Part shown: in pieces, positions 3,440 to 64,000 of the stretch
Layout: each line of letters begins with the position of its first letter
How positions within the stretch are numbered: the first letter of the stretch is position 1
Source: Candidatus Phelpsiimicrobium noxiivivens
Lineage (GTDB): Bacteria > Omnitrophota > Gorgyraeia > Velamenicoccales > Velamenicoccaceae
Length of the DNA stretch: 64,000 bases
Assembly (NCBI GenBank): GCA_001873995.1
Contig: MNVR01000008.1
Location: forward strand, 11,903-75,902
Direction of reading: 5' to 3'
Made by a program: the position numbers and the translations under genes
The notes under the pieces: model-generated
The model's input: the letters and a program-made list of their open reading frames with translations, nothing else
What the model was told of the DNA's origin: nothing
Databases searched by the model: none

Positions 3440-3461
3440 TAGTTATGCAAACTGTTTGAGG

Positions 3462-4114: not shown

Positions 4115-4147
4115 GGTAAATACTCCCTATTCATCTACAGTTATAAA

Positions 4148-4211
4148 CAAGTATATAGCATTAGGGATATCATGTCCAGCGTTTTTAAACACTATACAAA
4201 AAATATACTTG
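4148..4211. promoter_or_regulatory. Possible AbiEi operator (9-bp inverted repeat)
   Basis: CAAGTATAT (4148-4156) is mirrored by ATATACTTG (4203-4211) in the AT-rich gap between the divergent abiEi gene and transposase. AbiEi proteins repress through inverted repeats at their promoters. The wide spacing (46 bases) makes this a tentative call. Apart from this the gap shows nothing. Confidence 0.3.
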
Positions 4212-4309
4212 CCCATCTAAACAAACTATTTTCCACTAACCGTTCTGATAATACTGTACTATAAGACATCTTCGCTCAATAAGATTTTGTAAACAATTCA
4301 GGAGTTATA

Positions 4310-26933: not shown

Positions 26934-27026
26934 TAAATGCAGATAAAGGTAAACCATTCGCAAGAATGGGGTACAAAGCTAAAGTATCCTGCCGAACAAT
27001 GCAGGACAGCCAGCTGCCTAAACAGT
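26934..27026 (+). promoter_or_regulatory. Cyclic di-GMP-I (GEMM-I) riboswitch aptamer
   Basis: Core elements in order: GGTAAACC, stem CCATTC-GCAA-GAATGG with a GNRA tetraloop, the ACAAAGC joining segment (family consensus ACGCAAAGCC), the second stem TCCTGC...GCAGGA, and AGCCAGCTGCC closing against GGTA. It sits between a promoter and an intrinsic terminator ahead of a receiver gene, so c-di-GMP very probably controls readthrough. Whether it prefers c-di-GMP or cGAMP cannot be settled by eye. Confidence 0.85.
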
Positions 27027-47830: not shown

Positions 47831-48307
47831 TTACTTTAATCCCCAAGTTCCTAAGAAACTTCGTATCTCTTCGGCAATACGGCCCTTGGACTTTTCAAGC
47901 TCTTTTGTCATCTCAATGCCATAAGAAGTATCTTTAACCTGGACGCCCGCGATATGCACATCAGTGGAGACGCTTAACGAACTGCATAAACCCAAAAGGT
48001 CGGAAAGAGATAATTCGTGGGAAGAAAGTTTATTATCTTTGATCTGGTAAGAGGCTTCGTTGGGCCTGAATATTTTTAAGCTCGCCGGTTCTAGGCCAGC
48101 ATCCATAGCATCTATTAAAAGAACTTTTTTGAAATCTGTTATGTAATTGATAAGACCGAAACTGGCGATCCCAAAATTCAGGAATTTGACGCTCTTATCT
48201 TTCAGCTGATCTTCAAGGATGGATAGTATATGTATGCCAATACCGTCGTCACGGCGCAGGGTATTGCCCAATCCTATGATCGCGATACCTTTAGACGAAT
48301 TTAACAT
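47831..48307 (-). CDS. [NiFe] hydrogenase maturation protease (HycI/HyaD family)
   Basis: About 158 residues from the ATG at 48307. Motifs: GLGNTLRRDDGIGIHI, the Asp in LLIDAMDAG and the His in SSHELSLSDLL, which together bind nickel in the family. It removes the C-terminal tail of the large subunit after nickel insertion. The start lies inside hydA, overlapping exactly the codons of the tail it would cleave. The frame extends 19 codons further upstream without family support. Confidence 0.9.
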   Translation of the reverse strand: MLNSSKGIAIIGLGNTLRRDDGIGIHILSILEDQLKDKSVKFLNFGIASFGLINYITDFKKVLLIDAMDAGLEPASLKIFRPNEASYQIKDNKLSSHELSLSDLLGLCSSLSVSTDVHIAGVQVKDTSYGIEMTKELEKSKGRIAEEIRSFLGTWGLK

Positions 48308-49631
48308 CAAGCATATGAGCAGAGCAGGAAATGCATGGATCGTAGGCGCGAGCCAGCATCTCAAGCGTCAGTGTCATTTCTGCCTGATCCTGGCTGGCTA
48401 TGATCTCAGGAACTATTTTCCTCATATCAGCTTCTAAATTATTAATGTTCTGATTTGTCGGAATAATACAATTAGCGTTAGTGACAATACCGCCCTCATC
48501 GACGGTGTAATCGTGAAAAAGTATCCCCCGCGGCACTTCAACCGCTCCTACGCCGCGGCCTGCCTTAGTCTTTATTGGCCACTTATCCATTTTTGGATAA
48601 GTAGTAACTAAAACCTTTTCCTTGTTGATCCCGGATTTTAATATCCTCTCTAAGATCAGAATGGATCGCTCCAGGCAATATCCCCATTCCACAACCTGTG
48701 CTATCGTATTCATAAATGTATTATAGCAGGGCCTCTTCAGACCAAGGTGCTCTGCGACTTGTCTTGACTTCTTATCCAGCTTATCGCCATTTAAGTTGAA
48801 ACGGGCAAGCGCCCCCACCATGTAAGGAGCGTTATTGACGCTTACGAACTTCGCGGAAGAATAATCGCGGACCTCTTCTTTGATGACCGAGAGATAATCC
48901 TGAGGGTCTGCCAGACTTTGACCGTTGATATTTATCTTGCCGTCATAAAAAGCGTATTCGCTATCACTGGACAAAGCTACGTATTGCGCCTTTCTTTCAA
49001 AATTAGGCAGTTTGAGTTTCTTAAACAGCGCTACAGTTTCTTCAAAATCACCCCTCGCATCCAACATCATCTGATAAAGCTTTTTTAAAAGCGCTGCGTC
49101 AGGGATCTTTGTCAATCCGCCAATGGCGAAAGAAATAGGATGGACATGACGCCCTGCCAATACTTCACCGGCGAAATCAGAAAGCTTTTTCATCCTGAAT
49201 GCCATCTCGATGACCGGTTTATGCGTCTTTATAAGGGGCATAATACTTTTTACCCCTAAAAGATCAGGGGCTACCAACACATAGGCATGAAGAACGTGGC
49301 TATCCATCTGCTCGCTATGCAAAAGAAGTTTGCGCAGCATGACCGTATCCTCGTGAGGCGCTACACCTATAGCGCGCTCTGAGGCCTTGATAGATGCCAG
49401 GCTATGCCCGCAAGCGCAGATCCCGCAAATACGGCTCGTCAAATGCTGAGCTTCATAGACCGACCTTGAACGCAGCATCGTCTCAAAAAAACGGGCTGAT
49501 TCTATTACTTTGAATTTGCACTCTTTTAGTTCACCGGCTTTTACATCTACGGTGATATCTCCATGCCCCTCGACGCGGGTAAGATAATGGACGTTTATTT
49601 TAACTGTCTTATTTTTGGGATTCTTTTCCAT
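48291..49631 (-). CDS. hydA: [NiFe] hydrogenase large subunit, group 3b type
   Basis: 446 residues from the second Met. L1 motif RICGICACGHSLAS and L2 motif DPCISCSAH hold the four nickel-binding cysteines. After the His come MLDVKFV, the seven-residue tail that the maturation protease removes. Its companions (AsrA- and AsrB-like subunits) define the NADP-linked group 3b or sulfhydrogenase type. An ATG eight codons upstream (49655) is an alternative start; both overlap hydD. Confidence 0.94.
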   Translation of the reverse strand: MEKNPKNKTVKINVHYLTRVEGHGDITVDVKAGELKECKFKVIESARFFETMLRSRSVYEAQHLTSRICGICACGHSLASIKASERAIGVAPHEDTVMLRKLLLHSEQMDSHVLHAYVLVAPDLLGVKSIMPLIKTHKPVIEMAFRMKKLSDFAGEVLAGRHVHPISFAIGGLTKIPDAALLKKLYQMMLDARGDFEETVALFKKLKLPNFERKAQYVALSSDSEYAFYDGKININGQSLADPQDYLSVIKEEVRDYSSAKFVSVNNAPYMVGALARFNLNGDKLDKKSRQVAEHLGLKRPCYNTFMNTIAQVVEWGYCLERSILILERILKSGINKEKVLVTTYPKMDKWPIKTKAGRGVGAVEVPRGILFHDYTVDEGGIVTNANCIIPTNQNINNLEADMRKIVPEIIASQDQAEMTLTLEMLARAYDPCISCSAHMLDVKFV

Positions 49632-50379
49632 ATTTAGCTCTCTCTTTTTTACCATTGCAATACAACGTGAATTTATCCAGTATACCCTCTACGGTCAATC
49701 CATATTTTTGGAGTATATCTTTTTGAGCGTCAGCCGCGGGATTATCAATAAGCCCGCGGCATCCCACACATACGCTTCCATAATTAGGCAGCCATGAATT
49801 ACATCCGGCCTTTGTCACGGGGCCTAAGCAAAACTGCCCCTTCTCATAGGCGCACACATTCTCATTTTGTTTGCACTCAACGCAAACAGGATATTGCGGA
49901 ACATTATAAGGCTTACCCAACAAGACGCATTCCATGACTTTCAAGAATTCCGGGCCATAAATAGGGCACCCATGGACGTAATAATCAACATGCACGACTT
50001 CATCTATTGACTTAGTCTCAATGGCATCCGGCACTGGATCAACGCTTCCGTATACAGCCTTCTTCTGCTCTGCTAATGGTTTTAGATTTTTTAAGTTATT
50101 GACACCGCCTATTGTAGCGCAAGCTCCCATGGCCACTATTACCTTGGCCTTGGATGCTATTTTTTTTAAACGCTCCTCGTCATGCTTTGAAGCAACGCTG
50201 CCCTCCACCACCAAAACGTCGTATTCTTCGCCGGCCTCGCTCATGATCTCCCTGAAATTAACTATATCCACGACCTTAGCCAGTTCGAGTAAACTGGCTC
50301 CGAGATTAGCCACCTGAAGCTGACAACCTTCACAATCAGTAAATTCAAAAAAAGCTACTTTGGGTTTAGGCTTAGACAT
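49609..50379 (-). CDS. hydD: [NiFe] hydrogenase small subunit, group 3b type
   Basis: About 256 residues. Proximal cluster ligands in FTDCEGCQLQ, GACATIGGV and HGCPIYGPEF, and further Cys groups (CVECKQNENVCAY; CLGPVTKAGC; CVGCRG) for the medial and distal clusters. GGAGAG stands five bases before the ATG at 50379; an in-frame extension of 38 codons upstream lies inside hydG and is spurious. Electrons pass from the nickel site to HydG and HydB. Confidence 0.93.
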   Translation of the reverse strand: MSKPKPKVAFFEFTDCEGCQLQVANLGASLLELAKVVDIVNFREIMSEAGEEYDVLVVEGSVASKHDEERLKKIASKAKVIVAMGACATIGGVNNLKNLKPLAEQKKAVYGSVDPVPDAIETKSIDEVVHVDYYVHGCPIYGPEFLKVMECVLLGKPYNVPQYPVCVECKQNENVCAYEKGQFCLGPVTKAGCNSWLPNYGSVCVGCRGLIDNPAADAQKDILQKYGLTVEGILDKFTLYCNGKKERAKYGKESQK

Positions 50380-51244
50380 GGCACTCTCCTTCATGGCACT
50401 CCCCTTCCATTTCTCGCAGCTGCTCAAAAGTAAAGACCGGCCCGCACTGACAGACATAAACATTGCGGATCTGGCAGTGGCCGCACTTCCCAAGGCCGCA
50501 CTTCATCTTTCTTTCCAAAGACACAATTATCTGGCGCGCCGGGATCTCTTTCTTTAAGAATTCCAATATGACAAACTTATACATAATGGGCGGCCCGACT
50601 ACTACCGCGTAAGTCTGCTTAGGCCGAATGGTCACTCCCGGTATAAGGCTCGTGATCAGCCCGACATTACCTTTCCAGTCAGGGTCAGCCTTGTCCACGG
50701 TGCAATTAAATTTAATATCGGCCCTCTTCTGCCAACTGGCGATCTCATCGCCAAACAACATATCTTTAGGGGTCTTGCACCCCAAAAGTATCTGAACTTC
50801 TCCAAAATCTTTACGCTTATCTAAAATATACTGAATAAGCGACCTTAACGGCACTATGCCTAAACCTCCCGCTACGATAAGAATATTATTGCCAAGCATC
50901 TTATCTAAAGGAAATCCATTGCCAAAAGGGCCGCGTATGCCTATGGTGTCGCCACTCTCAAGTTTATGAAGCGCGGATGTCACAGTTCCCAATTTTCTTA
51001 CGGTCAGATCAAAATACTCCTTTTGCGTTGATGAAGAGCATATGGATATCGGAGCTTCACCATACCCAAAGAGAGAGGCTTGAACAAACTGTCCTGGCAA
51101 ATGGCCTAATTCCTTCTTGCCTTCCAGTTCTATTCTGAAAAATTTTTCGTGTTCAGTTACCTTGTTGGCCTTAACGATCTTTGCCTTCATCGGCCTATAG
51201 GGAGAGGCGCTTAAGATCTCCTGAAATGCCTGATCGTATTTCAT
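50372..51244 (-). CDS. hydG: Hydrogenase FAD/NAD(P)-binding subunit (AsrB-like gamma)
   Basis: 290 residues: ferredoxin-reductase-type FAD domain (about 20-110; RGPFGNGFPLD), NAD(P) domain (about 115-235; ILIVAGGLGIVPLRSLIQYIL) and a C-terminal [2Fe-2S] motif (MKCGLGKCGHCQI ... CQCG). It transfers electrons to NAD(P)+. The last residues (CHEGECHV) come from a short direct repeat at the overlap with hydD. Confidence 0.93.
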   Translation of the reverse strand: MKYDQAFQEILSASPYRPMKAKIVKANKVTEHEKFFRIELEGKKELGHLPGQFVQASLFGYGEAPISICSSSTQKEYFDLTVRKLGTVTSALHKLESGDTIGIRGPFGNGFPLDKMLGNNILIVAGGLGIVPLRSLIQYILDKRKDFGEVQILLGCKTPKDMLFGDEIASWQKRADIKFNCTVDKADPDWKGNVGLITSLIPGVTIRPKQTYAVVVGPPIMYKFVILEFLKKEIPARQIIVSLERKMKCGLGKCGHCQIRNVYVCQCGPVFTFEQLREMEGECHEGECHV

Positions 51245-52278
51245 TTTGCCTCCTTGCCGCTCAAAAGCTGATTTATGGTCTCAACCAAGCTGATCTTGGC
51301 CATGCAAGTGCGGGTGCAACGGCCGCACCCGGTACAAAAATACTTATTATATTTTTGAACGGAATACTTAAATTTTCTATAATAGCGGTGCCTTTGGCGC
51401 GCGTCCCTGCCGGCCCTGAAATCTTCTCCGGTTGAGACCTTCGCGAAATCGTCCATCTGGCAGTAATTCCATACTCGGTATCTATCACCATCATTAAGGT
51501 TCAACGAAACTTCATCAACAACGTCAAAACAATAACATGTAGGGCATACGGCCGTGCAATTAGTGCATCCAACGCAGCGTGCCCCTAGATCTTTCCACAC
51601 AGGGCTGAAAAAACCTTTTTCAAACGCTTTGTCTATCCTTTCCATGTCGCCATCGAATTCATTGTTGAATTTTTTTAATTTCTCTTCAAATGCCTTGTTA
51701 AGCTTCTCTTTATCTTTAGCGTTCATTTCACGTATATACTTTTTGCCGGTAACAAGTTTATCGCCTTTCTCAGAATTAATATGTATGGCATACTCATCGC
51801 CTAAGTCAGTAAGCATGATGTCATATCCGCCTTTATATACGTGAGTGCCTACTGCCGCACACGAAGCATACTTATCGCAATAATCCATGCACTCTAACCC
51901 GATAATAGTCATTTTCTCTTTTCTGTTCAGATAATTCGGATCAGCTGGTTTTTCGTTAAAGACCACATCCATGCACTGGATACCGGCTATATCGCAGGTG
52001 TGCACGCCGAAAAGGATAAATTCTTCAAATTCCCTAATGGCCTTACCAGTAGAGAACGGATTGATCTTGAATTTGAGCAAGAATTCCTTCTGCGGAAAAT
52101 AATACTTTTTTGGCGGAAGAATGGTAGGTATGTATTTCAGGGACATCTCTTCAAACTCCTGGATAGGCCGAAAGACATAAGCGCTCTCTTTTTTCTTAGG
52201 GCCATATATCTTTCCCCTATCTTTCAAAGAATCAAACCACCTACCCATATCCATTCTATTAATGATCGCGTACTTCAT
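51241..52278 (-). CDS. hydB: Hydrogenase iron-sulfur subunit (AsrA-like beta)
   Basis: 345 residues with two C-terminal [4Fe-4S] motifs: CVGCTNCTAVCPTCYC and CTGCGRCTRTCMAKI. The N-terminal region (HTCDIAGIQCMD) is typical of anaerobic sulfite reductase A-like subunits in group 3b enzymes. AAGGAG is nine bases ahead of the ATG. First gene of hydBGDA, with ATGA-type overlaps throughout. Confidence 0.93.
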   Translation of the reverse strand: MKYAIINRMDMGRWFDSLKDRGKIYGPKKKESAYVFRPIQEFEEMSLKYIPTILPPKKYYFPQKEFLLKFKINPFSTGKAIREFEEFILFGVHTCDIAGIQCMDVVFNEKPADPNYLNRKEKMTIIGLECMDYCDKYASCAAVGTHVYKGGYDIMLTDLGDEYAIHINSEKGDKLVTGKKYIREMNAKDKEKLNKAFEEKLKKFNNEFDGDMERIDKAFEKGFFSPVWKDLGARCVGCTNCTAVCPTCYCFDVVDEVSLNLNDGDRYRVWNYCQMDDFAKVSTGEDFRAGRDARQRHRYYRKFKYSVQKYNKYFCTGCGRCTRTCMAKISLVETINQLLSGKEAK

Positions 52279-52430
52279 GATATTTGCTCCTTAACGTTGC
52301 ATTATTTAGGCTTATTCCCTACAACGTTAATCCTGTCGAATGCGCTAAAATTATCGTAAAGAGAATTTTGGCGCTTCTTATGAGACAAGATAACTTTGCC
52401 TATTGTAGGTATCTCTTCCTTACAATATCA

Positions 52431-52477
52431 GACCCGACCCTTATAATGGATTGGGTCGGTCTACCCCTTTCTGGGGT
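52431..52477 (-). repeat. Two-hairpin repeat, copy 3
   Basis: GACC(C)GACCC/GGGTCGGTC around a 12-base loop (TTATAATGGATT), then ACCCC-TTTCT-GGGGT. It lies inside the 290-base gap between hypA and hydB, directly against REP-like copy 3. Confidence 0.65.
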
Positions 52478-52582
52478 GATCCCGAAGCCTGCCTGCCGGC
52501 AGGCCTGCGTTAGTAAATTTTATGCCCGGGTGCGCCGGGCAAGACTGCGCTTAAAATTTACGAGCGCTTAAGCAAGGGGTTC
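52478..52582. repeat. REP-like intergenic element, copy 3 (overlaps hypA end)
   Basis: CCCGAAGCC, the GCCTGCCGGCAGGC palindrome, GTAAATTTT, inner hairpin GCCCGG...CCGGGC, AAAATTTAC, GAGCGCTTAAGCAAGGGGTT. Its right end supplies the last codons (EPLA) and stop of hypA. Confidence 0.65.
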
Positions 52583-52828
52583 TTCCCTAAAACTCACGTG
52601 CGTCAATCTTGCGCCAACTCCAAAAGAGACGCGCACGATCTCAAGCTGTAAACCTTTCCAGGGCGTGTTCTTAACAGCTTCATTAAAATGGAATCTGAAA
52701 TGTTCTTCGTTGAGCGCTCCGAACTCAGGCAGCTCAACAGTTATCCCAACAGCTTCCTTATCGCTGTTGTCTTTTTTTACCTGCTCAACCACATCTAGCA
52801 TATTTTTGATCAAAGAATATTCGTGCAT
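52568..52828 (-). CDS. hypA: HypA nickel chaperone lacking its zinc domain
   Basis: 86 residues from MHEYSLIKNM, whose Met1-His2 is the nickel site of HypA. The alpha/beta part is normal (VELPEFGALNEEHFRFHF), but at the point where the CxxC zinc-finger region should begin the sequence turns into FGVGARLTHVSFREEPLA and stops inside a repeat. Normal HypA is about 113-118 residues with two CxxC pairs; none occurs here or in the next 290 bases. Probably truncated, so HypB interaction or nickel delivery may be impaired. Confidence 0.8.
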   Translation of the reverse strand: MHEYSLIKNMLDVVEQVKKDNSDKEAVGITVELPEFGALNEEHFRFHFNEAVKNTPWKGLQLEIVRVSFGVGARLTHVSFREEPLA

Positions 52829-52859
52829 AAGCGAACACTCCATAAATTACGGCCTCGCA

Positions 52860-53858
52860 TCAGCATATCCTGGGAATAGGCTCCGTGAGAGGAGAAGAAA
52901 GCGCCTTTTCCCCACCCAGAATAGTTTTCAAATACACGCGTCCATTTTTTTCTTTAAGCACTGAACCTATGATAGCGGCCTCTTTGCCTAAACGCGAAGA
53001 CTTAAGCAAGCGTAAAGCTTTGGCCGAATCGCGGGCAGATACAAAAAAAAGCATCTTGCCTTCGTTGGCAATATCAAGAAGCTCCAGGCCTAAGATATCA
53101 GCCAGGTTCCTGCAAGGAGCCGTTACGGGGATACGCTTTTCTTCCAAAATAAGGGAATATCCACAAAGATCGGCAATCTCGTTCGTTGCCGCTGAGACCC
53201 CGCCGCGAGTCGCGTCTCGCATAAAATGAACATCAATACAATTTTGAAGTAGTAATTTTACAATACACCACAAAGAATTGCAATCACTTTTTATAGCGGC
53301 ATGATAATTGAACTTTTCCCTGGACAAAAGGATGCTTAGGCCGTGCTGGGCTATTGGGCCATTGATCAAGACCATATCCCCAGGCTTGATCATGGAGGCG
53401 GCAAGCCGTTTTTGAACTGTGCCTATGCCTGAAGTATTGATAAAGACCTTATCAGTTTTGCCGCGAGGCACAACTTTTGTGTCTCCTGCTACTATTTTGA
53501 CGCGCTGGGTTTTTGCTTCTTTGGCCATTGATAAAACGATCTTTTCTAGGTCACGAAAGGCGAAGCCTTCTTCTAAAATAAAACCAGCTGTAAGGAACTT
53601 AGGCTCAGCTGCGCAAGAGGCAAGGTCGTTCATCGTGCCACAGACAGCCAATTTACCTATGTCGCCGCCAGGAAAAAATATGGGGTCTATAACATAAGAA
53701 TCAGTTGTATAAGCATAGGTGCCTTTACCCAGATCAAAGATCGCGGAATCATCCAGCTCGTCAAGATATTCGTTCTTAAAAGCCGCGGCAAACACCTCTG
53801 TCACAAGCTTATGCGTCAATACCCCACCGCTTCCGTATGATAAAGTTATTTTATCCAT
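52860..53858 (-). CDS. hypE: Hydrogenase maturation protein HypE
   Basis: 332 residues from MDKITLSYGSGG. AIR-synthase fold with DDSAIFDLG, TTDSYVIDPIFFPGGDIGKLA, VKIVAGDTKVV and FMRDATRGGVS, ending in the conserved PRIC whose Cys carries the thiocarbamate that becomes cyanide of the Fe(CN)2CO group. The frame continues 17 codons upstream into a hairpin repeat. Confidence 0.95.
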   Translation of the reverse strand: MDKITLSYGSGGVLTHKLVTEVFAAAFKNEYLDELDDSAIFDLGKGTYAYTTDSYVIDPIFFPGGDIGKLAVCGTMNDLASCAAEPKFLTAGFILEEGFAFRDLEKIVLSMAKEAKTQRVKIVAGDTKVVPRGKTDKVFINTSGIGTVQKRLAASMIKPGDMVLINGPIAQHGLSILLSREKFNYHAAIKSDCNSLWCIVKLLLQNCIDVHFMRDATRGGVSAATNEIADLCGYSLILEEKRIPVTAPCRNLADILGLELLDIANEGKMLFFVSARDSAKALRLLKSSRLGKEAAIIGSVLKEKNGRVYLKTILGGEKALSSPLTEPIPRIC

Positions 53859-53895
53859 AGATCTTCCCAAATCCCAACCTCGTCTTCCAAATGTC

Positions 53896-53938
53896 TTCCA
53901 AACCCGCATTGGAATTTACTTCCAATGCGGGTTTGGAA
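53896..53938. repeat. Perfect 19-bp inverted repeat between hypE and hypD
   Basis: TTCCAAACCCGCATTGGAA, a 5-base loop, and its exact complement. Flanked by extra TTCCAA/TTGGAA sequence. Strong hairpin on either strand. Confidence 0.75.
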
Positions 53939-53978
53939 GAATTGGAAAAATGGAAGAAAGTTGGAAAAAGACCACTAT

Positions 53979-55076
53979 TTATTGATACTCAAAATATGAC
54001 CGGCAAGTGCCTTCGCGCGAGACCATGCAAGGCCCCTTAGGCGCCAGCGGCGTGCACGACTTGCCAAAAAACGGGCACTGCGTAGGCGCTATTTTACCTT
54101 TTAAAACATCCGCGCACAAACAACCCCGCGCGGCACGCAAAGCACGTGTATTTTTAACTTCATTTTTTAAATTATACTTCTTCTGCGCGTCAAATTCCGA
54201 ATACACGCTCCTGACAAACAACCCGCTATTTTTAATAACACCCAGGCCGCGCCATAAGCTGTCTTTCTGTATAAACGCTTTTTTCAACAATGCTTTGGCG
54301 CGCGTATTGCCTTTATTCCGCACGATACGCGTGTATTCATTTTCTAAAATAGGCCGCCTGTCATTTACAGCTTTGACTATACGGTATATGGCAAACAGTA
54401 TATCCGAAGATTCAAACCCGGTGATCACTGAAGGTAACGCTATTTTTTTAAAAACCCTGGCATACCCTGACACACCAATAATAGCGCTGACATGGCCAGG
54501 CAATAAAAAACCATTCAGAGCAAGCTCTCTATCTTCTCCGAGCGCGATAAGCGCTTCAGGAATTGTCTTATGCGCCGAATAGACGCTGAAATTCCTTAAT
54601 TTTTCCTTTTTAGCTGTTTCCAAAGCTATGGCTGTGCCGGGGGCAGTCGTCTCAAAACCTACGGCAAGAAAAACGACTTCTTTTTTAGGCAGTCGCCTCG
54701 CGATATCCAAAGCGTCAAGCGCGGAATTTACGCCGCGTATATCAGCGCCCTCACTTCTGAGCGTCTCAAGAGATTCTCCATCCGCGGGCACGCGCAACAT
54801 ATCCGGATAAGTCGTGATAACAATATCTTTATGCCTGGCGAGAAACAAGGCATTCTTGAGATAACCGTCGCTAGTCACGCACACAGGGCAGCCAGGCCCT
54901 GAGATCAACTCTATTTTTTGCGAAAGCATACTTTTTATGCCGAACCTTCTGATCGCGGCTGTATGCGTGCCACAGACCTCCATTATCTTATAAACAGGCC
55001 TGACAACCTCAGAATTGATCAGATCAACTAAGCGCCTGACTTTTTTCGGATCCCTATATTCGTCTATGTATTTCAT
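53979..55076 (-). CDS. hypD: Hydrogenase maturation protein HypD
   Basis: 365 residues. Signatures: MEVCGTHTAAIRRFGI, SGPGCPVCVT, AVGFETTAPGTA, GFLLPGHVSAIIG and the C-terminal Cys cluster (GCLCADVLKG...CPFFGKSCTP...GPCMVSREGTC). With HypC it assembles the Fe(CN)2CO unit on its [4Fe-4S] protein. Confidence 0.96.
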   Translation of the reverse strand: MKYIDEYRDPKKVRRLVDLINSEVVRPVYKIMEVCGTHTAAIRRFGIKSMLSQKIELISGPGCPVCVTSDGYLKNALFLARHKDIVITTYPDMLRVPADGESLETLRSEGADIRGVNSALDALDIARRLPKKEVVFLAVGFETTAPGTAIALETAKKEKLRNFSVYSAHKTIPEALIALGEDRELALNGFLLPGHVSAIIGVSGYARVFKKIALPSVITGFESSDILFAIYRIVKAVNDRRPILENEYTRIVRNKGNTRAKALLKKAFIQKDSLWRGLGVIKNSGLFVRSVYSEFDAQKKYNLKNEVKNTRALRAARGCLCADVLKGKIAPTQCPFFGKSCTPLAPKGPCMVSREGTCRSYFEYQ

Positions 55077-55911: not shown

Positions 55912-57063
55912 TCACACCCTAGAACAAGCATTCCTCTCCATACAATACGCTGCTATCTGGCCCTGCGAAATACCCAGATCCGTAGTCAACGGCCTTTTCG
56001 CGAAAAATAGCCGAAACGCGTCTTTTGCGAAAACCTTCTTTATTTCATCTACAAGTATGTTATTCATAAATACGCCTCCAGAAAAATAAACGTCCGAAAT
56101 ACCTGTTTTAGCACGTAACTTCAGGCACGTCTTTCTTACAATATGAGCTAATGTAACGTGAAAGCGATATGCTATTTTCTCTACCGCGCTATTTAAAGCG
56201 ATATCATTGACTATTTTCCGAAATAATGAAGTACTGCCTAAGATTAAAATACCATTTTTTTGCTTTATATCAAAAGCATAGCTTTGCGCAGGAAACTTAT
56301 ACCTGGCTGCCGCTTTTTCTAAAAGAACGGCAGCTTCCGCCTCTTTTACAACTACGGCCTTTAACCCTAAAATAGCGCAAACAGCGTCAAATATCCTTCC
56401 AACGCTGGAAGTAAGCGGAGAATTGAATTTTTTTTCAATCATCTGGCGGACCATAAAAATATTTTGAGCAGGTACACCTTCAAGAAATTTAAATTTCATG
56501 CCGCGGACATCTCTCGGATATATCTTATCAAGAATACCTAAAGTCACGCGCCAAGGCTCGCGTATAGCTGCTTCGCTGCCCGGCAGGGCCTGATACTCAA
56601 AATGGGCTAACCTCTCAAATCGCTTGTTCTGATAAACAAAAAACTCCCCGCCCCAAACATTTCCGTCTGAGCCAAAACCAGTGCCGTCAAAAGTCAAGGC
56701 GATAAACCGCCCTGGGCCGGCCTCTATGCCAAAATTCGCCGCGTGCGCGATATGGTGAAATATTGGCGCAAGGCTTGCTTTTGGAAAATAAGACCCGCGA
56801 ATGCTATCAACTTCTTTTTTACAGACAAAATTGGGGTGCGGGTCAAACGTTATTGTATCCGGGCTCAAACGAAACGCGCGCTTAAGAAACCGAGCAGCTT
56901 GAAAATAAAATCCTCTTATATCACTAAGATCTTTTTTAGGCGACAGGGAATATATCTTTTGACTCTGCGTCCAGGAGACCCTCTGGCGGGTATCGGCCCC
57001 TAATGCAAGTATTGTCAGATCAGGCTTTAAAAATGAAGAAATTTGATTGATGATAAACTGCAT
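55912..57063 (-). CDS. hypF: HypF carbamoyltransferase, C-terminal (Kae1-like) half only
   Basis: 383 residues corresponding to the second half of HypF (usually about 750). Motifs HHIAHAANFGIEA, TFDGTGFGSDGNVWGGEFF and SGGVFMNN are those of the carbamoyl-transfer domain. The acylphosphatase, zinc-finger and YrdC-like domains are absent; upstream there are only a palindromic repeat and another gene. Either hypF is split, with the other half elsewhere, or it is truncated. The ATG at 57063 is preferred to a TTG three codons earlier. Confidence 0.85.
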   Translation of the reverse strand: MQFIINQISSFLKPDLTILALGADTRQRVSWTQSQKIYSLSPKKDLSDIRGFYFQAARFLKRAFRLSPDTITFDPHPNFVCKKEVDSIRGSYFPKASLAPIFHHIAHAANFGIEAGPGRFIALTFDGTGFGSDGNVWGGEFFVYQNKRFERLAHFEYQALPGSEAAIREPWRVTLGILDKIYPRDVRGMKFKFLEGVPAQNIFMVRQMIEKKFNSPLTSSVGRIFDAVCAILGLKAVVVKEAEAAVLLEKAAARYKFPAQSYAFDIKQKNGILILGSTSLFRKIVNDIALNSAVEKIAYRFHVTLAHIVRKTCLKLRAKTGISDVYFSGGVFMNNILVDEIKKVFAKDAFRLFFAKRPLTTDLGISQGQIAAYCMERNACSRV

Positions 57064-57085
57064 ATTTCTCAATTCTCGCTAAAAC

Positions 57086-57120: not shown

Positions 57121-58608
57121 TCACTCTTTACCCACATAGGATTTAGTGCCATGAGTTTCTTTTTCGTAATTGTTGGCATTCTCCATAAAATCGCGCACGC
57201 AGACACTGACCAAAGGATCATATTTCTTGTTATGCATAGCGCGTTGTATGCGGCCTGGTTTAGAGAAAAATTCCCTAAATGCCCATGACGCCAAGTCCGC
57301 CAATGCCGGCGTAGATAAATACTTCGTAGGCATTATAGGCTGATGAAAATCCCACTGCTTGATCTTTTTATTCAAATCTTCCATTTTAAGCAACCCTCTG
57401 GCCGTCACATCGTCCCATATCGGCGAGCCCGGGATAGGTGTTAAGAACTGCAACGCGATTATGTCCGGGTCTATCTCATCAATAGCCGCGAAGCGGCTTT
57501 TGATTATTTCCTCATTATCATCTTCAAACCCTATCATCCAGGTCAGGACTGTTGCAATACCAGCTTCGCGCAGTTTGGCAACGGTCTCTTTGACCTGCTC
57601 TACTGTTATGCCTTTCTTTATTTTTTTCAGCTCTTCGTCATCAGCCACTTCAAGGCCTACCAGGCACATAAAACAACCCGTCTTCTTTAAGTCCTTAAAA
57701 AGATCAATATCTCTTATAAAATAAGGGGCGCGGCCTAACGGCATCCACTTCATTTGCACATTTTTTTTCAAGCACAGCTCTATTGTCTCCTCCATCCTCT
57801 TGCGTGAGACATTATAACAATCATCCATCATGACAATGACCCTTGTGCCATACTGGTTATAAAGTATTTCCATCTCTTCTACGACTTTCGCGGCGGAGCG
57901 AAAACGATAATTCTTTAAGTCCTGGTTACCTCTAGGGTCATACTGGCCCCACTCGTAACAAAAAGTACAGGCAGCAGGGCAACCACGCGAATTCCAGGTT
58001 TCGGAATAGTTTTTCCAATAGGTATGGCCTACATATTTATCCATCGGGAACAGGTCATAAGCCGGCATTGGCAAAGAATCCAGATCCTTGATCAGCGGCC
58101 TGTAGGCATTTAATATTATCTTGCCATTTTGTCTCCACGCGGCGCCCTTAACTAAAGAAAAATCAGGTTTAGAACTGGAGAGCGCTTTTACGATATCACT
58201 TAGTGTCTCTTCACATTCGCCGGATATACAAAAATCGATCTTCGGATTTTCCTGCATCGTAAATTCGGTGGCCGACGCATAAAATATGCCCCCGACAATA
58301 GTATGCACGCGAGGAAAACGCTCTTTAACCTTGCGCGCCGCCTCATTATAAATAAATACTACGGCAAGCCCCCCGGTAGTATGAAGGATATCACCTACAT
58401 AGACAATATCAGGCTTGATCTCTCCGACTCGTTCTAACATTTGGGCATCATTCAAACCCAAAGCTCTGCAATCCAGGGCCTCCATTTGAATACCAGGATT
58501 GTGGGCACGAAGATACCCGGCTAATTGCGCGTGCCCTATGTTAATGGCTCTATGCGTTCCCCACATAGCCCACGCGCCTAAAGGCGGCTGTAAAAATAAT
58601 ATTTTCAT
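57121..58608 (-). CDS. B12-binding radical SAM protein (BchE-like class)
   Basis: About 495 residues. N-terminal cobalamin-binding domain (about 1-150; INIGHAQLAGYLRAH, VYVGDILHTTGG, TIVGGIFYAS), then a radical SAM core with the cluster motif CPAACTFCYEW and a C-terminal helical part. Members methylate or cyclise unactivated carbons. In this position it may tailor the polyketide product. AAGGGAG precedes tandem ATGs (58611, 58608). Confidence 0.85.
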   Translation of the reverse strand: MKILFLQPPLGAWAMWGTHRAINIGHAQLAGYLRAHNPGIQMEALDCRALGLNDAQMLERVGEIKPDIVYVGDILHTTGGLAVVFIYNEAARKVKERFPRVHTIVGGIFYASATEFTMQENPKIDFCISGECEETLSDIVKALSSSKPDFSLVKGAAWRQNGKIILNAYRPLIKDLDSLPMPAYDLFPMDKYVGHTYWKNYSETWNSRGCPAACTFCYEWGQYDPRGNQDLKNYRFRSAAKVVEEMEILYNQYGTRVIVMMDDCYNVSRKRMEETIELCLKKNVQMKWMPLGRAPYFIRDIDLFKDLKKTGCFMCLVGLEVADDEELKKIKKGITVEQVKETVAKLREAGIATVLTWMIGFEDDNEEIIKSRFAAIDEIDPDIIALQFLTPIPGSPIWDDVTARGLLKMEDLNKKIKQWDFHQPIMPTKYLSTPALADLASWAFREFFSKPGRIQRAMHNKKYDPLVSVCVRDFMENANNYEKETHGTKSYVGKE

Positions 58609-58631
58609 CATTAACTCCCTTCTCAAAAGCC

Positions 58632-59552
58632 TTACAATTTTACCTGTTTAAAGATCTTTTCTATATTCCCACCCAGGATATTTTTCTTATCAATTTCAGC
58701 CAGGCTCAAACGATCTAAGACATCCATAGAAGCGGCAATATCTTTTTTGGCCGGATAATCGCTGCCCCAGACGATATGTTCAGGGCCAAATAGTTCTAAA
58801 GATGCAATAAAATTAGATGCCGTCTTGTCGCCGCTGGTATCTACGTAGATCTGCTTTAAATAAACTGACGGTTTATTGCGCAGGTCCTTGACAAAATCTA
58901 TCCCCCTAAGCATCGTGTAAGTCGCGTCATAGCGATGCGCTATAAAAGGCGTGACTCCTCCAAAATACGAAAATATAAGTTTTAGGCCAGGAAACTGTTC
59001 AAATACGCCTGCCATCAAAAGTTTTCCCACGCACATTGTAGTCTCAAAGACATATTCTATTACCGGCGTTAACAAAGGATCGTTAACCTGAGAAAAACCA
59101 ATGGGTTTTATTATCTGCGGATGCACGAAAATGGGGACGCCCGACTTCTGCGCTGCCTTATACAAGCTCATATAGCGCGCGTCATCCAAGAATAATCCGT
59201 TAAAGCTTGTGGCAAGGGAAATGGCCTTAAAGCCAAGCTCGAGTGTTGCCCTTTTAAACTCGGCCATCATCTTCTTCTCATCATCGATCGGCAAGATGGC
59301 CGCTCCAATAAACCTATCGGGCCGCATCTTTAAAATAGCCGCGACTCGTTCGTTATATATCTCAACGACCTTCTCGTAATTCCCCATATGGATATGGGCG
59401 TCTGACGTAGGATAACTAAGGACGACCTTATCTACGCCTGCCTTATCCATGGCCGCTACGTGCGTTTCAATATCGCCCCACGCTTTAGAGAAAAAATGAG
59501 CGTTATCTATTATCTCCTGCGGCAACCAATGACTATGCGCGTCTATTATCAT
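58632..59552 (-). CDS. Amidohydrolase, ACMSD/decarboxylase-like
   Basis: 306 residues, TIM barrel. Metal ligands: MIIDAHSHW at the N-terminus, His in IFVHPQI, His in PFIAHRYD, and Asp in VWGSDYPA near the C-terminus. This is the amidohydrolase-2 set, which includes nonoxidative aromatic acid decarboxylases. Next to an aromatic polyketide gene set a decarboxylase role is plausible but inferred. Confidence 0.85.
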   Translation of the reverse strand: MIIDAHSHWLPQEIIDNAHFFSKAWGDIETHVAAMDKAGVDKVVLSYPTSDAHIHMGNYEKVVEIYNERVAAILKMRPDRFIGAAILPIDDEKKMMAEFKRATLELGFKAISLATSFNGLFLDDARYMSLYKAAQKSGVPIFVHPQIIKPIGFSQVNDPLLTPVIEYVFETTMCVGKLLMAGVFEQFPGLKLIFSYFGGVTPFIAHRYDATYTMLRGIDFVKDLRNKPSVYLKQIYVDTSGDKTASNFIASLELFGPEHIVWGSDYPAKKDIAASMDVLDRLSLAEIDKKNILGGNIEKIFKQVKL

Positions 59553-59591
59553 AAGTTTTGCCTATTTTAGGTATCTTACCCTGCAAAATTC

Positions 59592-59668
59592 ACCCCGGAG
59601 TCTGCCGAGAAAAATGTCTTGCCCAGGTACGCCGGGCAGAGATTTTCCCGGCGTCTAAACAAGGGGCA
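59592..59668. repeat. REP-like intergenic element, copy 4
   Basis: CCCCGGAGTCTGCCGAGAAAAAT, inner hairpin TGCCC-GG...CC-GGGCA, GATTTTCCCGGCG, TCTAAACAAGGGG. More diverged than copies 2 and 3 but with the same order of parts. A GCCTATTTTAGGTATC module precedes it, as in copies 1 and 3. Confidence 0.5.
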
Positions 59669-59681
59669 ATGTTTCTTTCCC

Positions 59682-60455
59682 TTATTTCTCCGGATGATTC
59701 TGTTTGAACGGAATGACCGGTTTTGTCCACGGCGTCTGTTGATTGATAACGGATATCTCTAACGGACAGACATTCGCAGGAACCGTCAAGGCAAACTTCA
59801 CCGCGTTCTCTATCGCCTCTGTCGTCATAAGCCTTGAGCTATCCTTCGAGATATCATTAAGCTTCCCGGTCAATTCAGTATTAGTCACTCCTGGCAAAAG
59901 AGACGTCACCTTAATACCGAGATCGCGCATCTCCCAAAATAGCCCCTTGCCCCATTTGCGTAATGCCCATTTAAGCGACGTGTAAACTATAAAGTTGCGC
60001 GGCGGAGGATCTACCATAGTAGAGCCCGATACCATATTAATAACAGCGCCTCCCTTATTTTCAACAAAGTGATTTATGATAAGGCGCGTCAGCATCACAT
60101 AGCCGAAAAAATTCGTATACATGAGCTTCTCTATATCTTCCAACGGCTGCTCGTGAAATGGATACTGGCTTGAAACACCCGCGTTATTGATAAGCGCGTC
60201 TATTTTCTTAAACTCCTTCAAAGAAACATTTACCAGATTTTCCAGGTCCGCCTGCTTTGACACATCACACACGACACCTACAACTTTTGTCTTATATTTT
60301 TTAGCAATCTCATCGACAGTTTTATCCAAAACATCTTTGCCGCGCGCGGCCAAAACAAGGTTCATGCCTTCGCGAGCCAAAGACTCGGCAATCGCCCGTC
60401 CTATCCCGCGGCTGGAACCTGTTATTATCGCTGTCTTGCCTTTTAACTCTGACAT
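59682..60455 (-). CDS. SDR-family ketoreductase
   Basis: 257 residues from the ATG at 60455, preceded by AGCGGAGG. Rossmann motif TGSSRGIGRAIA, NNAG segment (LINNAGVSSQ), catalytic Ser in MVSGSTMV and YxxxK in VYTSLKWAL. FabG-like reductases in type II polyketide clusters reduce a poly-beta-keto intermediate, which fits the neighbours. Confidence 0.88.
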   Translation of the reverse strand: MSELKGKTAIITGSSRGIGRAIAESLAREGMNLVLAARGKDVLDKTVDEIAKKYKTKVVGVVCDVSKQADLENLVNVSLKEFKKIDALINNAGVSSQYPFHEQPLEDIEKLMYTNFFGYVMLTRLIINHFVENKGGAVINMVSGSTMVDPPPRNFIVYTSLKWALRKWGKGLFWEMRDLGIKVTSLLPGVTNTELTGKLNDISKDSSRLMTTEAIENAVKFALTVPANVCPLEISVINQQTPWTKPVIPFKQNHPEK

Positions 60456-60471
60456 AAGATCCTCCGCTAAT

Positions 60472-60912
60472 TTATTTCCCAGCTTCTTTTTCAATTACTT
60501 TCTTAAATATCTCAAGATTCTCTTTTGAATGCTTATTGATAAAACCTTCCACCTGTTCATCATTGAACTTTGCTTTTTTGTCCATTGTAAAATGCTGTAT
60601 CCATGTAAGGATAACGCCGTCTGTGGCCTGCGTGTAAAGCCAGACTATCTTCATATACTCAAAAGGAAATTTTGGTTCAAACCTTTCTGAATAAGTAAAA
60701 AAATCCTCTTTAAATAATAATCTAATCGATTGCCAGGAGCGCCCCTCATCATCTGTAAGCTGAAACGTAATTTTATTGCCTTCTTTTTTTACAATTTTGG
60801 CTTCCTTATATTCCCCGCCAAAAAGTTCTGTCCAACGTGGTATATCGTTTGATATATCAAATATCTTCTCATAAAGTGCTTTGATCGTTATAGAATTACA
60901 AGTATGTCCCAC
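60472..60912 (-). CDS. SRPBCC-fold aromatase/cyclase-like protein
   Basis: 146 residues with the START/SRPBCC layout of polyketide cyclases such as TcmN-type aromatases: N-terminal IKALYEKIFDISNDIPRWTELF, central beta strands, and a long C-terminal helix (about 118-143). Such proteins fold and aromatise polyketide chains. It ends 16 bases before the SDR start. Confidence 0.75.
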   Translation of the reverse strand: MGHTCNSITIKALYEKIFDISNDIPRWTELFGGEYKEAKIVKKEGNKITFQLTDDEGRSWQSIRLLFKEDFFTYSERFEPKFPFEYMKIVWLYTQATDGVILTWIQHFTMDKKAKFNDEQVEGFINKHSKENLEIFKKVIEKEAGK

Positions 60913-61064
60913 GGTTCGCCCCCTCTTTTATACTTTTGCCAATCATTCCGAGTCTCAATCTGCTGCATCAAGAGACGAGAAATAATTTCTTATTATTCTA
61001 AAATCGCAGCTGCTCTCGTTTAGTCAGTTCCTACCTGGCTCACTTCTACAGCAAAAACTACATA

Positions 61065-61190
61065 TTAAAATTTCCCTGAACGCTCTAAAATCAAAATGAT
61101 TAAAGCACTAATTATAAATAAGGCACTATAAAAATTTCGCCCTAAAAATTTTCTCTCAAGGCCCCATACAAACCCCAATACTATCACCAT
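61065..61190 (-). CDS. Possible very small membrane protein
   Basis: 41 codons (MVIVLGFVWGLERKF, then ALFIISALIILILERSGKF), two hydrophobic stretches. It overlaps the end of the next membrane ORF in another frame. It may be the frameshifted C-terminus of that protein. No ribosome site seen. The 150 bases downstream to the SRPBCC gene show nothing. Confidence 0.3.
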   Translation of the reverse strand: MVIVLGFVWGLERKFLGRNFYSALFIISALIILILERSGKF

Positions 61191-61449
61191 CCAATTTGTG
61201 TCTCAGTAGAAATGCGATAAAAATAGTAAAAAACCCGATTGCGCCACCAGTGACGGTAGATAATATAATCGGTGCTCTACTCAAATACAAATACCACCAA
61301 AAAAATAAAATTACTGATCCAAAAATCAAATTTGAGATATACTCTAGCCCTAAAAATGCAAAAATTATAGTCAAAATAGATAATGGAATAGCTATCTTTA
61401 CAACATGACTCCCAGAAAATATAATTTTCTTAATTATAGCTCTGTCCAA
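61156..61449 (-). CDS. Small membrane protein, unknown
   Basis: 97 residues with three predicted TM helices (about 13-35, 38-56, 60-82). Base use is AT-rich compared with the polyketide genes on either side. No family recognised; the C-terminal HKLDGDSIGVCMGP is unlike a natural ending and the reading may continue in the frame of 61065-61190 after a frameshift. Confidence 0.45.
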   Translation of the reverse strand: MDRAIIKKIIFSGSHVVKIAIPLSILTIIFAFLGLEYISNLIFGSVILFFWWYLYLSRAPIILSTVTGGAIGFFTIFIAFLLRHKLDGDSIGVCMGP

Positions 61450-61493
61450 AATCTTTACCTTTTACTCTCTTAACATATTCCAGATTATTTTCC

Positions 61494-61691
61494 TTAAAGC
61501 TTATTCAAACTTGTCTTTGTCGACTGCCGTGACTCTTTAAAAGATCCAAAAATATCCTGAATATTGTTAAGAAAAACAAGATATTGGTCAAATGAAAGAT
61601 AATCCATTCCCTTCGCAGTTCTAAAATCCTGGCACCGAGCCGCACTTTTGGCATCTTCTAACATTTCTTTTTTTTCTTCTTTAGTCAGCAC
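61494..61691 (-). CDS. Small partner protein of the nucleotidyltransferase
   Basis: 65 residues, acidic and Lys/Asp-rich N-terminus (LTKEEKKEMLEDAKSAARCQ), then YLSFDQYLVFLNNIQDIF. I recall proteins of this size and pattern next to stand-alone nucleotidyltransferases, but the role is unknown. It overlaps the nucleotidyltransferase gene by 11 bases. Confidence 0.6.
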   Translation of the reverse strand: MLTKEEKKEMLEDAKSAARCQDFRTAKGMDYLSFDQYLVFLNNIQDIFGSFKESRQSTKTSLNKL

Positions 61692-62232
61692 CTTTTACAT
61701 CCTTAATGATCTTTCCCAACTCATCAGTCCTGCCAAATAAATCAAAATATTCTTTCAATAATTTCATGTCAAGTTGTGCATAATGCTCTTTAACAAGCCC
61801 TTGAACATCCGCCATATCTTGAAGGCGGCGCCGTGGATCATTTGAACTTGACTGAACTTTCAGGCCTATTTGATCTTCAAAACGCAACACTTTAATTTTA
61901 AATTGTCCGCCAAAAATATCTTTTTCTCCAGCGCGCCGTAACATCGCCAATGCGTACTTACGATGCGCCAATAAAAAATCCACACGGCCAAATTCTCTTG
62001 CCGAATGACAAAAATTCAATACATCCTTACTTTCATGAATAAGCTCATACCCTTGAGCGCACATGATATCTTTGATCTTCTGACCTTCTGTAGCCAAAAT
62101 AAGCATATCAATATCAAGCGTCGAGCGTGAAATGCCTGCTGATTGTAATGCCAATCCACCAATAAGAGCAAAATCAATATGCTCTTTTTCAAATGCTTCC
62201 AATAAAAACTTAAAAACTCTAATAAAATCCAT
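61681..62232 (-). CDS. Stand-alone nucleotidyltransferase (AbiEii/MNT-like)
   Basis: 183 residues. N-terminal active-site pattern DFALIGGLALQSAGISRSTLDIDMLI (GG...SxxTxDxD) and a later Asp in GRVDFLLA. Related enzymes include type IV toxins and antibiotic nucleotidyltransferases. With the 65-residue partner it forms a toxin-antitoxin-like two-gene cassette dropped into the polyketide gene set, 10 bases from the cyclase gene. Confidence 0.75.
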   Translation of the reverse strand: MDFIRVFKFLLEAFEKEHIDFALIGGLALQSAGISRSTLDIDMLILATEGQKIKDIMCAQGYELIHESKDVLNFCHSAREFGRVDFLLAHRKYALAMLRRAGEKDIFGGQFKIKVLRFEDQIGLKVQSSSNDPRRRLQDMADVQGLVKEHYAQLDMKLLKEYFDLFGRTDELGKIIKDVKGAD

Positions 62233-62242
62233 AATAAATCCG

Positions 62243-63049
62243 TTAATCCCCTAAAATAGCCACAGCCCTCGTCCAGCCGGCGCCCGTATCCTTTATTTTG
62301 ACAGGCAGGCACGAAACAGTAAATCCATAAGGCTTAGGTATGGTACCCAAATTAGCCATCCGTTCCATATGGCAATACTCGCGCCTACGGCCTAAAAAAT
62401 GACACGGCCATATCTTAGACCTATCTTTGGTGGACAAAAATTCGTTAAACATTTCAAAACACGGCCTATCCAGGCCGATAGTATCAATACCGATCATCTT
62501 AACACCCTGATCAAGGATAAATTCAAGCGCGTCAGGCATCATGCCTACGTATTTATTGACATAATCAGGCGTCCCTATAAGTTTATCGCAACCTGTATAT
62601 ATCAAAACAATATCCATAGGTTTAATTGTATATCTTGCGCGGTTAAGAGCTGCCATTACTTCCTCTTTATTAATATTCTGAGGATATTTTAGATGAGTAA
62701 GGTCAAGGACAACGCCCGGACAAAAGCACCACTCCAGCGGCACATCCGCTATCATGCGGGCAGGCCGGCCCTCACACTTTGAACCATAATGGAACGGCGC
62801 GTCCACGTGTGTACCCATATGCACCGAGGCGTGGACTATCTCCAATGACAACATTTCGACATCAGGCACATCATTAGGCTTTGCCACACGCTCGCCCTTT
62901 GCAAAACGCTCTTTGCCTCCGGGCTGTTTGGACATTACAACCTCATTAAAATGCTCCACACCCGCCGCGTGAGTGATACGATCAACGGTAGCGGCGTGCG
63001 TTTCAATAAGAGTATCATCAATAGGAAGACTCAAATCAATAATGCGCAT
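62243..63049 (-). CDS. Cyclase-family protein (PF04199, kynurenine formamidase fold)
   Basis: 268 residues. Metal-binding motif HMGTHVDAPFHY (HxGTHxDxPxH) and the later IGIDTIGLDRP segment define the family, which was named for putative cyclases of antibiotic polyketide clusters and also includes arylformamidases. Beside an ACP and KS-beta the cyclase reading is favoured. Confidence 0.85.
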   Translation of the reverse strand: MRIIDLSLPIDDTLIETHAATVDRITHAAGVEHFNEVVMSKQPGGKERFAKGERVAKPNDVPDVEMLSLEIVHASVHMGTHVDAPFHYGSKCEGRPARMIADVPLEWCFCPGVVLDLTHLKYPQNINKEEVMAALNRARYTIKPMDIVLIYTGCDKLIGTPDYVNKYVGMMPDALEFILDQGVKMIGIDTIGLDRPCFEMFNEFLSTKDRSKIWPCHFLGRRREYCHMERMANLGTIPKPYGFTVSCLPVKIKDTGAGWTRAVAILGD

Positions 63050-63058
63050 GTTTTGGAT

Positions 63059-63098
63059 CCTTCCTCTATGTGGGATTAGGAAGGCCCACCCTTTCTGG
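63059..63098 (-). repeat. Two-hairpin repeat, copy 4
   Basis: CCTTCCT/AGGAAGG closes a 12-base loop (CTATGTGGGATT), then CC-CTTTCT-GG, where the second stem is only two pairs. It lies 9 bases before the cyclase ATG. Confidence 0.5.
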
Positions 63099-63099
63099 A

Positions 63100-63339
63100 T
63101 TACTTTTTTTTGGAATCTATGACTTTAGCTATCTGTTCAACGGAATGTTGCTTAGCCACCTCTTTTTCATAGATAGATATACCAAACTCTTTTTGAAGCG
63201 CTATACAGACCTCTACCATCTCAGTTGAATCAACGCCCAGGCTCTGCTCAAGCGATAAGCCTTCCCTGACCTCTTCAGGCTTTACCTTAAGAAGTTTCAC
63301 AATGACATCCTTAACTTTTGTTTTTGTATCCATATTCAC
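63100..63339 (-). CDS. Acyl carrier protein of the polyketide system
   Basis: 79 residues with the phosphopantetheine attachment Ser in LGVDSTEMVEV (DSxxxVE form of the usual DSL). Acidic helices typical of ACP. It overlaps the KS-beta gene by 4 bases, reproducing the KS-CLF-ACP order of minimal type II polyketide synthases. Confidence 0.9.
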   Translation of the reverse strand: MNMDTKTKVKDVIVKLLKVKPEEVREGLSLEQSLGVDSTEMVEVCIALQKEFGISIYEKEVAKQHSVEQIAKVIDSKKK

Positions 63340-64000
63340 CCTTTCTCCAATGCCAACACCGCATTGATACCGGCGCGGCCCCTTGAGATCACAATGGCCC
63401 GTCGGATATTATGTTCTTTAGCTCTATCCCTGCAATAGTTCAACCCCGCGCATTTCGGGTCTATATCTTTTAAGTTCAAAATCGGAGGTATAAGGCTGTG
63501 CTCCATAGCCAGGACCGTCACGAGCACATCCACGGCGCCTGAGGCGCCCAACAAATTACCAAACATAGTCTTAGGCGCGCTTACCGGGACATCTTTGGCG
63601 TATTTACCAAAAACTTCTTTGATGGCGGCGACTTCTGATATGTCGCCCTCTAATGTCGCTGCGCCATCAAGCGAAATATAATCTATTGTCTTAGGGCTAT
63701 AACCCGCGTCATCTAACGCCATCCTTATTGCCCGCGCCAATTGTTTACCGTTAGGGTCTGATTTGATCCTATCTACGCCATCGCACGTCGTGCCATAACC
63801 CGTAATATAGGCAAAGGCTTTCTTGCCTCTTTTTTTTGCCCTCTCTTCGCTTTCCAATATCATAATGCCAGCGCCTTCACCTACAACAAAACCATCGCGA
63901 TGCTTATCAAAAGGCCTATAAGCCTCCTCGGGATGTTCATTATTTTTGGATATTTGCCCGTTAGTATTACAACAAAGAAGCCCATACGGCGAAAGCGGGG
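63336..64000 (-). CDS. Ketosynthase-like chain-length factor (KS-beta), C-terminal part
   Basis: The frame is open to the window edge; 221 residues are visible. It aligns with the second half of KAS II/KS proteins: YRPFDKHRDGFVVGEGAG, then the position of the first catalytic His (normally HGTST) reads SLDGAAT, and that of the second (normally TGHLLGAAG) reads FGNLLGASGA. Asp and Asn in place of both His is the pattern of catalytically inactive KS-beta/CLF partners. The KS-alpha gene should lie just beyond the edge. Confidence 0.88.
   Translation of the reverse strand, partial: PLSPYGLLCCNTNGQISKNNEHPEEAYRPFDKHRDGFVVGEGAGIMILESEERAKKRGKKAFAYITGYGTTCDGVDRIKSDPNGKQLARAIRMALDDAGYSPKTIDYISLDGAATLEGDISEVAAIKEVFGKYAKDVPVSAPKTMFGNLLGASGAVDVLVTVLAMEHSLIPPILNLKDIDPKCAGLNYCRDRAKEHNIRRAIVISRGRAGINAVLALEKG

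Follow-up and report, generated by a model that had tools for sequence, protein, structure and literature searches.

The 64,000-nucleotide stretch analysed here (the window; contig C2:11903-75902, from a genome of 1.56 Mb and 91% completeness) holds the downstream half of a genuine type II polyketide synthase (PKS) gene cluster, and we put the probability that the whole is a complete type II PKS cluster of non-actinobacterial kind at roughly 0.8. A first-pass annotation had recognized, at the end of the window, genes for a beta ketosynthase (KS-beta), an acyl carrier protein (ACP), two cyclases, a ketoreductase, a decarboxylase-like protein and a B12-binding radical S-adenosylmethionine (rSAM) enzyme in what it took for a candidate-phylum genome. 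The genome is assigned to Candidatus Omnitrophota, and all the named genes are present on the minus strand. The contig goes on for 12.7 kb beyond the window, and this extension was read as L004 and L005 (position x of L004 is position x + 54097 of the window). The full cluster comprises approximately 18-20 genes, including a further B12-binding rSAM gene and a nucleoside-processing module upstream. Its features in and next to the window are:

L004:10478-11743, outside the window: KS-alpha, 421 aa, abutting KS-beta with zero gap
63336..64000, minus strand: the 3' 220 codons of KS-beta, of the chain-length-factor (CLF) type by its invariant residues and its place in the CLF clade; the gene runs to L004:10477 (412 aa)
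63100..63339, minus strand: ACP with attachment Ser38 in GVDSTEM (PF00550, 34.9 bits)
62243..63049, minus strand: PF04199 metal-dependent cyclase-like hydrolase with an HxGTHxDxPxH motif (107.5 bits)
61681..62232, minus strand: AbiEii/DUF2204-like nucleotidyltransferase, a lineage-specific insertion missing from nearly all other loci
61156..61449, minus strand: 97-aa membrane open reading frame (ORF) of no family
60472..60912, minus strand: SRPBCC aromatase/cyclase-like protein, weak against Pfam here, with an orthologue that passes the cut-off
59682..60494, minus strand: SDR ketoreductase-like protein with TGxxxGIG and YxxxK (PF00106, 163 bits)
58632..59552, minus strand: amidohydrolase-2 of the ACMSD/resorcylate decarboxylase superfamily (PF04909, 100.7 bits)
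57121..58626, minus strand: second B12-binding rSAM enzyme, BchE/HpnJ-like, with CxxxCxxC (PF02310 and PF04055)
55912..57072, minus strand: HypF C-terminal (Kae1-like) carbamoyltransferase half, the cluster boundary (PF22521, 232 bits)

KS-alpha, KS-beta and ACP, the three components of a minimal type II PKS, have now all been found. The annotation had proposed looking beyond position 64000 for a KS-alpha with Cys-His-His, and the next gene encodes exactly such a ketosynthase: C169, H309, K341 and H346 are invariant among 17 Omnitrophota homologues, so that the Cys-His-His-Lys site is intact. The Asp (D303) and Asn (N340) that had been noticed at the two catalytic His positions of KS-beta are invariant in 18 Omnitrophota homologues, as is K335; the Lys is thus kept. 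The Cys position, on which the annotation was silent, holds Arg or Lys in every Omnitrophota sequence compared. The start of the ACP gene overlaps the 3' end of the KS-beta gene by 4 bases, and the DS(38) of the attachment site is kept in 15/15 sequences. KS-alpha and KS-beta genes lie side by side in 96 loci, mostly with gaps of <100 bases.

Two maximum-likelihood trees, a check that the annotation had also called for, placed KS-alpha within the KS-alpha clade of type II PKSs and KS-beta within their CLF clade, with support of 99/99 and 99/98, respectively, in the first tree and of 100/99 for each placement in the second. FabF, FabB, KasB and an aryl-polyene (APE)-type pair fell outside both clades in the second tree, the single APE-type pair being weakly placed on long branches; the long reference branches (Azospirillum KS-beta, AntE and the APE rows) leave the internal order of the CLF clade unsettled. 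On the strength of the trees we rejected a FabF/FabB or degenerate-thiolase identity. Neither of the two outcomes that the annotation had named as refuting its reading was therefore obtained. The solved structures closest to KS-alpha are 6smo_B (AntD of Photorhabdus; 397 bits) and actinorhodin KS-alpha (381 bits), with the best FabF scoring lower (354 bits). The top-scoring NCBIfam models for the KS genes are FabF models, mostly under their cut-offs, as would be expected if these were duplicated fatty-acid synthase ketosynthases with no PKS at all; we regard this as extremely improbable, given the tree placement, the invariant loss of Cys, His and His from KS-beta, and the separate FabF/FabD locus on contig 11. 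A search of a phage collection returned FabF-like matches only, at no more than 38% identity among the matches listed.

A scan of GTDB with a KS-beta profile revealed 192 loci encoding relatives, and the best 80 of these are nearly all from Candidatus Omnitrophota, the few others being vaguely or probably wrongly named bins. KS-beta (called at E 1e-100 or better and at least 51% identity, FabF-type matches separating at about 40%) was found in 139 of 384 sampled genomes of the phylum (~36%), all but one in the class of the window. Gene order is largely conserved across ~100 loci drawn from two partly overlapping sets, and the grouping is therefore beyond chance. Seven genes, encoding a PCP_red-like protein, a KPR-like enzyme, KS-alpha, KS-beta, ACP and the PF04199 and SRPBCC proteins, were present in all 36 loci of the GTDB scan with at least 7 kb on each side; the others were rSAM (35), SDR (35), amidohydrolase (34), isomerase (31), nucleoside phosphorylase (PNP; 30), aldolase (29) and an MFS exporter (29), the distal genes being undercounted with flanks of 10 kb. 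Distances between KS-alpha sequences correlate with those between KS-beta sequences (r = 0.945, 91 loci; 0/500 permutations), and other cluster genes gave correlations of 0.57-0.83 (0/500 permutations each), a pattern also expected from common descent of the genomes and nothing more.

The annotation had described genes in one direction with short gaps. The common direction stands; short gaps throughout do not, since the nucleotidyltransferase (61681-62232) and the membrane ORF (61156-61449) lie between the cyclase and SRPBCC genes. Neither belongs to the conserved cluster, and probably neither is a pathway gene. A gene similar to the nucleotidyltransferase also occurs near KS-beta in another locus (L064).

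Set against known systems, the synthase is of a familiar kind and the cluster around it a novel variant, the new elements being the nucleoside module with its aldolase-SCP2, aldehyde dehydrogenase (ALDH) and ligase. Actinobacterial type II PKSs such as those for actinorhodin and auricin share the minimal architecture, the KS-alpha triad and the His-to-Asp change of KS-beta; in the actinobacterial CLFs compared, however, Gln mostly occupies the Cys position, with Asp and Arg in place of the first and second His, respectively, and flavin monooxygenases are encoded nearby, whereas the Omnitrophota cluster has none. The Omnitrophota KS-alpha groups with AntD of the Photorhabdus anthraquinone PKS (AntD/AntE/AntF; 6smo), and the stretch WFPAA.QGQ...SKT is common to the Omnitrophota KS-beta, AntE and an Azospirillum plasmid KS-beta, but the Photorhabdus tailoring genes differ, and the Cys position is taken by Asp in AntE (PMC6638757) and by Arg or Lys in the Omnitrophota proteins. 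The Bacillota plasmid PKSs of Apilactobacillus kunkeei (pPKS, PMC9648514) and Priestia megaterium also encode KS-alpha, KS-beta, a ligase, a cyclase-family (kynurenine-formamidase-like) protein and an SRPBCC/polyketide cyclase, and their KS-beta likewise has Arg or Lys at the Cys position (DRASG in Priestia, DKSSG in Apilactobacillus). They differ in that the stretches read contain neither an rSAM gene nor a nucleoside module, and in being plasmid-borne, whereas the Omnitrophota cluster is conserved through a class. Arg is found at this position in the Azospirillum KS-beta as well, and Arg/Lys there looks like a trait of part of the non-actinobacterial CLFs. On plasmid p3 of Azospirillum brasilense Sp7, a type II PKS cluster of the KS/KS-like/ACP kind (L136:8977-11687) is accompanied by an RND pump and several genes for antibiotic monooxygenases.

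The reading of the cyclase, SRPBCC, SDR and rSAM genes as tailoring genes was supported. H77, G79, H81, D83 and H87 of the PF04199 cyclase are invariant in 20/20 sequences, and Y171 and K175 of the SDR are kept in 16/16. The SRPBCC protein scores 21.7 bits here, under the Pfam cut-off of 27.4, and its assignment rests on an orthologue in L053 (38 bits against a cut-off of 23.4). The possible decarboxylation fared less evenly: the metal ligands of the amidohydrolase are retained, but Tyr196 replaces the His found in 7/13 homologues, so this step is doubtful in the present genome. The rSAM enzyme shares its domain order with the cobalamin-dependent BchE and HpnJ, its nearest NCBIfam models, yet scores far under their cut-offs (202 bits versus 481 for BchE, TIGR02026, and 151-162 versus 578 for HpnJ), and membership in either family was rejected. 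Membership in a ladderane cluster was rejected likewise (TIGR04072 B12-rSAM, 76-94 bits versus a cut-off of 360). The carbamoyltransferase was discarded as a tailoring enzyme, being the C-terminal half of HypF, a hydrogenase maturation protein. Most relatives encode the MFS exporter between SRPBCC and SDR; no homologue was found in the assembly of this genome. A fold search with the small core protein gave PCP_red-type structures as its top two matches (E ~0.2), and a fold search with the TIGR04076 protein gave no useful match.

We infer the reactions and the product from gene content, active-site residues, tree placement, conservation and co-occurrence. A KS-alpha/KS-beta heterodimer would extend an ACP-bound chain iteratively using malonyl units, with KS-beta predicted to be unable to condense and instead to fix chain geometry and length; malonyl and phosphopantetheine transfer would be borrowed from fatty-acid synthesis, the genome having a single FabD and a single AcpS. 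The PF04199 and SRPBCC proteins may then direct folding or cyclisation of the chain, which the SDR and KPR-like enzymes would reduce. One of the two cobalamin rSAM enzymes of this cluster family would subsequently alter the product without oxygen; the dedicated phosphorylase, isomerase, SCP2-aldolase and ALDH would process the adenosyl compound arising there as product or by-product. An MFS exporter is also encoded in most relatives. Several points weigh against this scheme: the aromatic nature of the product is an assumption for a cluster known from its genes alone, this branch offers no aromatase/cyclase of proven function, the SRPBCC similarity is weak, and KS-beta lacks the Gln typical of most actinobacterial CLFs.

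The SDR and KPR-like reductases and the SCP2 domain would also fit a KS pair whose chain is partly reduced or not aromatic, such as a lipid or an aryl-polyene-like product, and cispentacin is a non-aromatic product of a type II-like KS pair. Nevertheless, we consider such a chain rather unlikely: no dehydratase or enoyl reductase was recognised in the cluster, the APE ketosynthase and its CLF fall outside both clades, and the pairing of a PF04199-type cyclase with SRPBCC recurs in the Bacillota type II PKS clusters. A respiratory quinone of polyketide origin gained no support from UbiA, the one family examined; the genome has two homologues, one of which (G000:C32:46575-47243) contains two in-frame stops and is either a pseudogene or an assembly error.

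Besides an acyl-CoA ligase and ALDH, the nucleoside module encodes a hexameric-type nucleoside phosphorylase, an MtnA-like isomerase and a class II aldolase with a fused SCP2 domain, to which many loci add a second, truncated isomerase. It lies upstream of KS-alpha in this genome and upstream or downstream elsewhere. Upstream of the ligase, other family members encode DUF212, an L,D-transpeptidase, AccA and a PadR regulator; the present contig stops short of this region. Among the 384 genomes, 129 carry both aldolase-SCP2 (full-length or split) and KS-beta, 10 KS-beta alone, 11 the aldolase alone and 234 neither (Fisher p ~2e-75, relatedness ignored). Some of the discordant genomes reflect contig breaks (L166 starts with SDR, rSAM and amidohydrolase). 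Genuine PKS-free modules occur in several families (L163-L165, L167, L168 and L170); these contain ligase, rSAM, PNP, isomerase, aldolase and mostly ALDH, and continue into MMPL, LolA-like/DUF1329 and DUF1302 genes, which suggests lipid export.

At about even odds, the module is a dedicated dihydroxyacetone phosphate (DHAP) shunt that clears the 5'-deoxyadenosine made by the cluster's rSAM enzymes, yielding DHAP and acetaldehyde, the latter passing through ALDH and the ligase to acetate or acetyl-CoA and possibly back to the PKS. The gene set has the enzyme classes and reaction order of the published route (MtnP/MtnK, MtnA, Ald2; PMC10986504), the aldolase Zn ligands E74/H92/H94/H153 are invariant in 11/11 sequences, the Cys and Asp motifs of the isomerase are kept in 12/12, and the module adjoins an rSAM gene even where the PKS is absent. 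However, the Omnitrophota copies are divergent and sit inside a biosynthetic cluster, and a shunt explains neither the fusion of SCP2 to the aldolase nor the Glu-to-Val change at the PNP ribose site (AVDMVSS). Moreover, canonical MtnP and MtnA score over their cut-offs elsewhere in the window's genome and in 12/12 other genomes tested, all KS-beta-bearing; the cluster copies are therefore divergent, dedicated paralogues, and their substrate may differ. Taken with the export genes, the SCP2 domain and the altered ribose site lead us to favour, by inference, an unusual lipophilic compound as that substrate.

Such paralogues would be accounted for, together with the SCP2 domain and the ligase, if an rSAM enzyme adenosylates a polyketide or lipid, PNP takes off the adenine, and the isomerase and aldolase release DHAP, leaving two SAM-ribose carbons grafted on the product; ALDH and the ligase would turn the leftover R-CH2-CHO into an acid or thioester. 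HpnH/HpnG and MqnE/MqnB are precedents, and the genes beside the PKS-free modules fit with lipid export. We hold this only tentatively, and clearly below the shunt: to our knowledge, no B12-dependent rSAM enzyme adenosylates a substrate, and HpnG resembles the phosphorylase less closely than uridine and DeoD phosphorylases do. That such adenosylation and trimming of the ribose to a two-carbon graft by phosphorylase, isomerase and SCP2-aldolase form a class-wide Omnitrophota pathway is slightly less likely still; we know of no PKS with a carbon extension of this kind.

The usual view of type II PKSs is that they belong to secondary metabolism and occur sporadically in the large genomes of actinobacteria. 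The Omnitrophota PKS, by contrast, has been retained in many families of an uncultured class with small genomes (some ~1 Mb), its tailoring genes co-inherited, and such retention suggests a basic ecological or cell-envelope function. The cluster further hints at tailoring that is O2-independent, and at a recruitment of nucleoside-cleaving enzymes to biosynthesis that can be tested. In a 2023 catalogue of type II PKS clusters, 'Candidatus Omnitrophica' is one of 14 phyla with KS-CLF matches (PMC10132072), and a large study of Omnitrophota genomes leaves polyketides unmentioned (PMC10066038); we found no description of the Omnitrophota cluster in the literature searched, which excluded most subscription papers.

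Another Omnitrophota family encodes, near an intact KS, a KS whose catalytic positions read Phe/Ser/Glu (L141:9922-11223 and 3271-4551; L145); the two may form a second KS/degenerate-KS system, unrelated to the first. Immediately beyond the downstream end of the PKS cluster, ORF translations indicate an apparent [NiFe] hydrogenase, which includes subunits of the diaphorase type, together with Hyp maturation genes (window 47831-55076); the HypF C-terminal half (55912-57072) lies beside hypD/hypE/hypA, and the N-terminal half is not adjacent. Rfam matches above threshold in the window are a c-di-GMP-I riboswitch (26938-27021) and an nhaA-I RNA (2581-2648).

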